62,242 nucleotides of DNA from Candidatus Peregrinibacteria bacterium CG1_02_54_53 (lineage in GTDB: Bacteria > Patescibacteriota > Gracilibacteria > Peribacterales > Peribacteraceae). The DNA lies in the NCBI GenBank assembly GCA_001872575.1, contig MNWP01000033.1, positions 1-62,242 of the forward strand. The letters run 5' to 3'. The notes under the pieces are model-generated. The model worked only from the letters and a program-made list of their open reading frames with translations. It had not been told where the DNA came from and made no database searches. Below are positions 236 to 62,242 of this stretch, one piece after another. Every line of letters starts with the position of its first letter. Positions within the stretch are counted from its first letter, which is position 1. The translations under genes were made by a program, and so were the position numbers.

Positions 236-440
236 AGTTCATGACCCATTCGACTTCGCTCAGGGTCATCCATTTACTTCATTTCAAGGTTCTTCAAGAT
301 GTCATCCCGAGCGCCCGCCCGGATGTTGTCCGGCCCGCCCGATCCGAACGGAATCGTTCGGGCGGGTACGGACGGGTAGTCGAGGGATGAGAGAAAAACC
401 GTCCTGTCGGCCGTAGTCCCGCATACGCGGGACGAAGGCT
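236..440. repeat. Cluster of short palindromic elements
   Basis: This stretch before the 3' end of hisS holds no convincing gene. It contains several short inverted repeats of families seen elsewhere in the window: one of the TTCGACTTCGCTCAGG type near 248-264, a CCCGCCCG/CGGGCGGG-rich block around 310-380, and a GTCCCGC...GCGGGAC hairpin at about 415-436. Positions 67-235 show only weak secondary structure. Confidence 0.6.
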
Positions 441-460
441 GAAGGTTTGTCTCTCATGAA

Positions 461-60373: not shown

Positions 60374-60458
60374 TGGTGGGCCGGGAGGGACTCGAACCCC
60401 CGAAGGCGAAGCCACCTGATTTACAGTCAGGCCCGTTTGACCACTTCGGTACCGACCC
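60374..60458 (-). tRNA. tRNA-Tyr (anticodon GTA)
   Basis: 85 nt on the minus strand with acceptor stem GGGTCGG/CCGGCCC, discriminator A and encoded CCA. Anticodon stem CCTGA/TCAGG encloses CTGTAAA (GTA). The long variable arm is the class II form expected for bacterial tRNA-Tyr. A disrupted partial copy lies upstream at 60500-60612. Confidence 0.97.
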
Positions 60459-60499
60459 ACGAATACTGCCGTTGGAGAAGAAAGGAACAATGTGGAGGC

Positions 60500-60612
60500 G
60501 GCCCGTTTGCCTGCCCGTCCGTAGTCCCGCAAGTGCGGGACGAAGGCGGGACCACTTCCACCGTCGCTCGCTTAGCGAGCTATGGTGGACAAGTCGGTAC
60601 CGACCCACGAAT
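60500..60612 (-). repeat. tRNA-Tyr 5' remnant split by two palindromic inserts
   Basis: Read on the plus strand, GGCCCGTTTG (60500-60509), ACCACTT (60551-60557) and CGGTACCGACCCACGAAT (60595-60612) join exactly to the 35-bp 5' portion and flank of tRNA-Tyr. They are separated by a 41-bp GTCCCGC/GCGGGAC-type element and a ~37-bp CCACC...GCTCGC/GCGAGC...GGTGG element. So two elements are inserted in one duplicated tRNA fragment. The gap 60613-60731 shows no gene. Confidence 0.85.
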
Positions 60613-60731
60613 TGAAGAATCATTGATGGAAAGAGCTTTATGACCGCGGGAAGTGTATGAGAAAAACAGGAGGCATTCAATGGATTCCGTGGGTGCTTTG
60701 GGATAAAATCCATCCCTTTTCCCTCATCATT

Positions 60732-61374: not shown

Positions 61375-62242
61375 CTATATGCGGATTTTTCGCCCCTCAT
61401 AACGCACCAGCTTGAGCAAAGTCTGCTGCCCAAGGATCTCTTTTGAGAGGGGATCGTCGTAATCACTGTCGTACACCACAGTGTTGATGCCGGCATTCAG
61501 AATCATCTTGGCGCAGATCACACAGGGGAATGTGTTGCAGTAGAGCGTCGAACCTTCGATCGAGATGCCGAACTTGGCGGCCTGCGTGATGGCATTCTGC
61601 TCGGCATGGGTTCCGCGGCAGATTTCGGCACGTTGCCCCGAGGGAATACCCAGCTTCGCCCGTAGGCACCCCCCCATCTCGGCGCAGTGCGGTACGCCGC
61701 GCGGTGCGCCGTTGTAGCCCGCTGTCAGCTGTTGCTTATCTTTGGCGATCACCGCTCCCACTTTGCGACGAAGACAGGTGGCGCGTTTGGCCCAGGTGTA
61801 GGCGATCTCCATGAATACCTCATGAAAGCTGGGGCGGTCTTCGCCCGTTTCGAGTCGCTCGAAGTGCGCCAGCTTTGCTTCGAGGTCATCGAGCGATCCT
61901 TCGTTCACGATCAGGTAGTCGGCGCAATCAAGCGTGCGTTGCACCTGCTGACCTTCCGGCGGTTCGCCGATGCCACGTTCTCGGGCAAGCTTCTCCAAAA
62001 TCTCCTCGCGTGAGAGCTTCGAGCCTTCGCGATTGCGCTCGGTGATACGATCAACAATCGTCTCGGGCGATGCCGTGACCCCGATCATTTGAAAACCCGG
62101 CAGCTTTATAAGCTCCTCCCACTCGCCGGGATTGCGGATGCCGTCGATCACCCACCTTCGTCCCGCTTCTGCGGGACTTCGGCGGGCAGGCCCACCTCGC
62201 TCCTCTTCTGCGGGACTTCGGCGGGCAGGCCCACCTCGCTCC
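61375..62242 (-). CDS. dCMP/cytidine deaminase with N-terminal kinase-like domain (5' end beyond window)
   Basis: Partial: the frame stays open to the window edge. Upstream of the GTG at 62151 it reads RRW-VIDGIRNPGEWEEL, the conserved end of a P-loop nucleotide-kinase-like domain, followed by MIGVTASPETIVDRITERNR. The C-terminal deaminase domain has the zinc signature GTHAEQNAI and PCVICAKMILNAGI. ComEB-type dCMP deaminases feed dUMP synthesis. The codons just before RRW come from two tandem copies of a palindromic element (62166-62242), so about 26 extra residues (ERGGPARRSPAEA type) are inserted, in frame. Confidence 0.85.
   Translation of the reverse strand, partial: ERGGPARRSPAEEERGGPARRSPAEAGRRWVIDGIRNPGEWEELIKLPGFQMIGVTASPETIVDRITERNREGSKLSREEILEKLARERGIGEPPEGQQVQRTLDCADYLIVNEGSLDDLEAKLAHFERLETGEDRPSFHEVFMEIAYTWAKRATCLRRKVGAVIAKDKQQLTAGYNGAPRGVPHCAEMGGCLRAKLGIPSGQRAEICRGTHAEQNAITQAAKFGISIEGSTLYCNTFPCVICAKMILNAGINTVVYDSDYDDPLSKEILGQQTLLKLVRYEGRKIRI
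62166..62242. repeat. 39-bp tandem repeat of a palindromic element inside a coding gene
   Basis: CTTCTGCGGGACTTCGGCGG and the following GCAGGCCCACCTCGCTCC recur with a 39-bp period (13 codons). The unit is related to the GTCCCGC/GAAGGCGGG elements elsewhere. The second copy is cut by the window edge, so more copies may exist. Confidence 0.85.

Follow-up and report, generated by a model that had tools for sequence, protein, structure and literature searches.

In the 62,242-nt stretch of DNA analysed here (the window), an intact tRNA-Tyr(GTA) gene lies on the minus strand at 60374-60458 (ARAGORN, with a match to Rfam RF00005). Its 5′ leader (60459-60499, minus strand) consists of 6 nt in common with an adjoining partial copy of the gene and a 35-nt spacer, Y. 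The partial copy (hereafter, the scar), which duplicates the 5′ end of the intact gene, spans 60500-60612 and comprises three minus-strand tRNA segments parted by two hairpin elements: tRNA-Tyr nt 20-29 (60500-60509; GGCCCGTTTG on the plus strand); the 41-bp element A, in the D-loop between nt 19 and 20 (60510-60550); nt 14-19 (60551-60556; ACCACT on the plus strand); the 37-bp element B, at the boundary of D-stem and D-loop between nt 13 and 14 (60557-60593); and nt 1-13 with 6 nt of 5′ flank (60594-60612; TCGGTACCGACCCACGAAT on the plus strand). With A and B removed, 60500-60612 reads GGCCCGTTTGACCACTTCGGTACCGACCCACGAAT, which is nt 1-29 of mature tRNA-Tyr plus 6 nt of 5′ flank and is identical to 60430-60464 at all 35 bases. 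The original prediction, that taking a 41-bp and a ~37-bp palindrome out of one tRNA-Tyr copy restores a 35-bp segment exactly, is thus correct to the base, and the match survives re-alignment, with the boundaries of the two insertions uncertain by 1-2 bases because of letters in common. Between the scar and the gene there is no room for an ORF.

A and B have a common fold (a 4-nt CYTG tail, a 6-bp stem, a 3×3 internal loop and an inner stem; in A, a CCTG tail, an internal loop of GTAG/CGAAG and the inner stem) and lie in opposite orientations to each other. Because the folds are alike, the two elements look like members of one structural class inserted in opposite orientations. The claim of two different mobile palindrome families therefore held for the mobility, given the empty sites at tRNA-Pro and tRNA-Asn described below, but the notion of two separate families was dropped. 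In the genome of the window (G000, a member of the Ca. Peribacteraceae; 1.37 Mb in 42 contigs, with 45 tRNA genes), element A has one copy at 98% and about ten weaker ones; 18 copies are strictly A-type, and by hand count five of these 18 lie within 250 bp of a tRNA gene or in its scar or intron (2% expected). A hairpin finder returned 16 candidates in 452 kb versus 5 in shuffled sequence; since these candidates are only partly credible, copy counts were taken from the other searches. Elsewhere in the window (390-455), a different repeated hairpin, AGAGAAAAAC..AGGTTTGTCTCTCATG, carries an A-like hairpin in its apical loop; empty copies of this host hairpin occur at other places in G000.

The tRNA-Tyr fragment is not a chance match, as copies (at least 12 nt) of a tRNA gene's own 5′ end lie upstream of 12 of the 45 tRNA genes in G000, compared with 1.3% when tRNAs were paired with the flanks of other tRNAs. 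Own 3′-end copies of at least 12 nt lie downstream of 7 of the 45 (control, 0.3%), and none of the same 45 genes has an end-copy on the wrong side. In the closed genome G003, from the same genus, 31 sampled tRNAs yielded five 5′-end and five 3′-end scars (controls, 2.9% and 0), and the Peribacteraceae as a whole have dozens of scars around their tRNA genes. Rather than a passive duplicate that was merely hit, the fragment in the window is part of a family-wide set of tRNA end-copies, some of which have a GIY-YIG nuclease ORF between them and the intact gene. Individual scars vary in form. At tRNA-Val(tac) in G015 (C8 ~398500-399200, L277), an inverted duplication of the gene carries two tandem scars on each side, the hairpins of which have identical outer arms and differing apices, as if the apices had been swapped. 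Upstream of tRNA-Gly(gcc) in G003 (L254), the end of the scar repeats the scar's anticodon-arm sequence in inverted form (GCGTCGCC...GGCGACGC), possibly a trace of template switching. A tRNA-Asn gene of G000 that ARAGORN misses (C5, L243:12233-12537, minus strand) has a group I intron (RF00028, 78.4 bits) starting from the anticodon loop, and the intron region contains hairpin elements.

The history of the tRNA-Tyr scar could be followed in part through related genomes. Adjacent to the scar, 60613-60700 has a homologue in G002, of the same genus (C19:30274-30340, 88%), where this flank directly abuts a single intact tRNA-Tyr gene and spacer Y is absent; the fragment and its flank accordingly mark the old 5′ end of the tRNA-Tyr gene, with 60613-60700 as its ancestral 5′ flank. 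By eye, leaders partly similar to that of the tRNA-Tyr gene in the window are present in G015, G003 and G004. The same layout recurs in G015, from another genus, where B is missing and the D-loop carries, at the position of A, an A-type hairpin with a different apex; because the G015 fragment has G015's own D-loop base, a separate origin or a later gene conversion is suggested. In G003, G004, G010, G027 and G030, a leader and a hairpin are followed by a short copy of the tRNA-Tyr 5′ end, a unit present twice in tandem in G010. No uninterrupted tRNA-Tyr scar was found in the relatives compared. A different arrangement is seen in G001 (C50, L060:660-2070), where two tRNA-Tyr copies, one with a broken acceptor 3′ end at the ancestral flank, lie 1.3 kb apart and enclose two ORFs that match no Pfam family.

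Empty sites, which the original prediction had proposed looking for in relatives, were exact at two other tRNA genes. The tRNA-Pro(tgg) scar is uninterrupted in G003, where GTAGCT runs directly into CAGTTGGCT, and in G000 the same junction holds a 39-bp hairpin followed by an alignable spacer; likewise, the tRNA-Asn scar joins GTAGCT to CAATGGTA in G003 and has a 31-bp insert there in G000. Neither G000 insert has a target duplication beyond a possible single base. As exact loss is less likely than gain, the simple reading of these alignments shows that the scars are older than the inserts and that the hairpins entered after the scars had formed. An element neighbouring the Asn site, common to both genomes, differs between them in its apex. 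We considered whether the hairpins themselves might have made a long target-site duplication (leader plus tRNA 5′ part, a repeat of 60-80 bp) and rejected this, the Pro and Asn inserts being clean.

The positions of the insertions follow the tRNA fold. Among scars found without reference to any insertion pattern, 30 of 30 breaks fall in a loop or at a helix junction (21.6 expected from tRNA structures, P ~3 × 10−5), a figure that is approximate because G000 and G003, of one genus, supply 26 of the 30 and several are orthologous, and so not independent events, with a few of the 30 doubtful. A D-arm pattern, TAGCTCCN{18,48}RGCAGTTGG, gave 38 matches in 24 of the 74 family genomes, 37 of them hairpins by eye, versus 5 for a reversed-pattern control, and the one opposite-orientation D-arm pattern tested had no match in the family genomes. 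For a T-loop pattern there were 17 matches in 13 family genomes (control, 0), 16 of them hairpin-like. These results show a family-wide preference for loops and junctions, with one dominant orientation at the D-arm. Spread throughout the phylum was dropped as a possibility, since the D-arm pattern had at most about 3 convincing matches in at least 343 genomes of the phylum outside the family. Beyond tRNA, a repeated hairpin, AGAGAAAAACC..GGTTTGTCTCT, carries similar elements in the apical loop of some of its copies, and other copies of it are empty. tRNA sequence is strongly over-represented as a target of the hairpin elements, and the preference for it that had been suggested for testing was borne out by both patterns and by the A-type copies near tRNAs. 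Scars are where insertions can be seen, because insertion into an intact gene is expected to be lethal; lethality is a selection effect and by itself no explanation of the loop rule. Two further inserts of 22 bp, in the D-loop of a G003 tRNA-His scar (L271) and in the anticodon loop of a G031 tRNA-Thr scar (L304), resemble double hairpins by eye, and RNAfold gives two hairpins for the former and not for the latter.

Reading the flanks of the scars revealed that some are parted from the intact tRNA gene by a small ORF bearing GIY-YIG motifs. Three tRNA-adjacent ORFs of 79-96 aa matched PF01541 well above the curated cut-off, and a search of 70 family genomes detected this domain in every one. 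A tRNA gene is present within 500 bp of 59 of the 117 single-domain GIY-YIG genes examined (4.7% expected) and shares the strand of the GIY-YIG gene in 56 of these 59 cases; GIY-YIG genes are thus associated with tRNA genes in this family, at a rate of about one-half that may fail for weaker matches because the loci were mostly drawn from the best-scoring ones. Beyond the ORF, a piece (at least 11 nt) of the same tRNA was present in 18 of the 59 cases (0.8 expected from other-tRNA controls), and it matches the side of the gene on which the ORF lies: 3′ or internal pieces for ORFs on the 3′ side, and 5′ or internal pieces for ORFs on the 5′ side. In a tree built from 92 columns, the proteins group by tRNA isotype (34 changes versus 45.8 ± 1.7 when shuffled, 0 of 2,000 shuffles) and not by genus (44 changes versus 46.1, P = 0.14); with isotypes spread over several clades, the median distances between genera show no difference. 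In two genera, a few bases separate the intact tRNA-Phe gene from the start of a GIY-YIG ORF, beyond which lies a copy of the tRNA-Phe 3′ end whose T-loop contains a 20-bp palindrome. A comparable series at tRNA-Tyr in G081 (L435) comprises the intact gene, a GIY-YIG gene and an 18-nt 3′ scar with a hairpin in the T-loop. At the tRNA-Tyr loci examined, GIY-YIG genes are on the 3′ side, the scar in the window being on the 5′ side, and there is no GIY-YIG gene beside the tRNA-Tyr of the window.

Together, these observations lead us to favour, with reasonable though far from complete confidence, a two-stage origin of the scar, in which a tRNA-targeting GIY-YIG element or a partial duplication came first and hairpins then entered the loops of the resulting copy. 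In the first stage, the original 5′ end of the tRNA-Tyr gene (nt 1-29 and its old flank) would have been displaced when the gene was rebuilt beside it with a new leader, and the duplication would be the trace of a free-standing, tRNA-targeting GIY-YIG element (an ORF with a duplicated tRNA end) that has since lost its ORF; we infer such an element because other loci in the family repeat this architecture and retain the ORF. In the second stage, two REP-like hairpin elements of one structural class would have inserted cleanly into the D-loop of the non-functional copy, with a target duplication of no more than a base or so. The hairpins may enter single-stranded loops either by moving as single strands, into DNA that is folded during replication, or through template switching. 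At tRNA-Tyr itself, the two-stage reading is supported by the G015 scar, which has A and lacks B. Counting against this reading are the missing GIY-YIG neighbour in the window and the 3′-side position of GIY-YIG genes at the other tRNA-Tyr loci, the occurrence of tandem-type scars, the lack of any uninterrupted tRNA-Tyr scar among the relatives compared, and the 56 of the 117 single-domain GIY-YIG loci (3 kb each) that contain no tRNA gene.

The strongest competitor, to which we would give appreciable though clearly minority weight, is a plain partial tandem duplication of the leader and tRNA 5′ part by slippage or template switching, followed by independent hairpin insertions, with the GIY-YIG genes as other tenants of safe sites. 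The scars of tRNA-Arg(tcg) in G000 and tRNA-Val(tac) in G015 do look like plain tandem duplications with identical units, for most G000 scars the gap to the gene is short and contains no ORF, and the inverted self-copy that ends the G003 tRNA-Gly(gcc) scar is, by eye, what template switching gives. Against it stand the 18 of the 59 tRNA-adjacent GIY-YIG ORFs that are placed exactly between an intact tRNA gene and a fragment of that gene from the corresponding side, and the grouping of GIY-YIG proteins by tRNA isotype.

With regard to the second stage, the hairpins might be REPs moved on single-stranded DNA by a RAYT (a Y1 HUH transposase). Their GTAG motif and hairpin core, the clean insertion without target duplication and the loop preference would all fit, and REPs that reside in small palindromes have been recorded before, in Thermomicrobium roseum among others (PMC3733652). 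As the mover, however, a RAYT failed the tests made, leaving this explanation improbable: 5 of the 14 scored genomes with D-arm insertions, including the closed G003, have no Y1_Tnp match; copy numbers are uncorrelated (rho = −0.10, P = 0.57); and the RAYT-like Y1 gene of G000 (C13, L222:4218-4790) is flanked by repeats of its own, CAGCAGCCCTTCGTGGCTG, which are not of the A/B family.

Displaced tRNA ends also call to mind integrative elements, which classically target tRNA genes and leave a displaced tRNA end on their far side. That the scars are attachment-site remnants of since-deleted elements using a tyrosine integrase would fit this precedent and the G001 locus, where a broken and an intact tRNA-Tyr flank a 1.3-kb segment with two unclassified ORFs. 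It is mostly the 3′ end of the tRNA that integrases duplicate, whereas 5′-end scars are at least as common here as 3′-end scars, and the recurrent gene in place is a GIY-YIG gene; we regard such an origin as very unlikely. Least probable of all, by a narrow measure, is that the upstream fragments and hairpins are functional (extra promoters, attenuators or processing signals) and kept by selection: leaders do recur with each unit, but the presence of fragments differs between same-genus orthologues (tRNA-Tyr and tRNA-Pro), and most tRNA genes have none.

Extending the two-stage reading from this locus to the family is more tentative, and we hold the following to be a little short of an even bet: that Peribacteria carry tRNA-targeting GIY-YIG units, putatively cutting tRNA genes and copied together with a replacement tRNA end, which leave outward scars, and that nuclease-less hairpins enter single-stranded loops there, the scars serving as neutral landing sites that record both kinds of event. 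In the open-access literature we found no earlier description of palindromes with tRNA genes in Patescibacteria, of GIY-YIG genes with tRNAs in CPR bacteria, or of a tRNA-loop rule in bacteria, alone or in combination with GIY-YIG genes, and the paper on the Ca. Peribacter genome makes no mention of palindromes or of GIY-YIG. The findings bear on how REP-like palindromes choose their sites and move without an obvious enzyme. Because the target is defined base by base by the tRNA fold, a closed genome allows the states before and after insertion to be compared, and the position and orientation of the hairpins are close to fixed at two sites, loop-directed insertion is testable here. The GIY-YIG association, if true, would add the chromosomes of a huge uncultured bacterial group to the prey sites of homing endonucleases on tRNA genes, and would explain the tRNA fragments that litter these genomes.

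Among known systems, REP/GTAG palindromic repeats resemble A and B in that all are short imperfect hairpins, rich in GC and containing a GTAG motif, that occur singly at scattered sites, and the size fits (20-40 bp), some REP families also lying within small palindromes (PMC3733652). They differ in that the GTAG/CGTC tag of REPs is terminal, whereas A and B have CYTG as the terminal tag and GTAG internally; no cognate RAYT flanked by the same repeat was found here, and the dominant recognised target is instead tRNA loops. Hairpin elements also move in mitochondria, such as the double-hairpin elements (DHE) of Allomyces and the RHE of sponges (PMC2800124; PMC7218506), and GC-rich palindromes are described as flanking tRNA genes in Neurospora mitochondria (Yin et al. 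1981, as cited in PMC7218506). The likeness lies in tiny hairpins that are optional between relatives, with no flanking duplication reported in Allomyces, and, for Neurospora, in the association with tRNA genes. The 22-bp inserts at G003 tRNA-His and G031 tRNA-Thr are reminiscent of the double-hairpin class, whereas A and B each form one hairpin interrupted by an internal loop, and here the setting is a bacterial chromosome, with fixed positions in tRNA loops and one dominant orientation at the D-arm.

For the GIY-YIG genes, the closest counterpart is SegB of phage T4, a free-standing GIY-YIG enzyme at tRNA-Arg/tRNA-Ile (PMC2988022, Table 1). Like the T4 Seg enzymes, the Peribacteria proteins have a single GIY-YIG catalytic domain, their genes lie beside the target, and their lineages track the target tRNA isotype and not the host genus; they differ in being predicted nucleases encoded on Peribacteria chromosomes with a piece of the tRNA duplicated beyond the ORF. 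Duplicated tRNA ends in bacteria also include the distal repeats of E. coli tyrT (rtT), which lie downstream of a tRNA-Tyr gene and contain its 3′ end, and for which we know of no hairpin insertion and no nuclease ORF.

The palindromic elements of Rickettsia (RPEs), to which the original prediction had likened the hairpins, are a looser parallel: they too are palindromes inserted in genes, but RPEs are known for in-frame insertion into ORFs, whereas the recognised sites here are tRNA copies and hairpin loops; REP-like elements and the hairpin elements of mitochondria come nearer. The window does contain a single instance of hairpin repeats within an ORF, at 62151-62242, where two tandem 39-bp hairpin repeats lie in the N-terminal part of an ORF (61375-62241) that resembles a deaminase, and are read through in frame to give RGGPARRSPAE twice, in the manner of RPE insertions.
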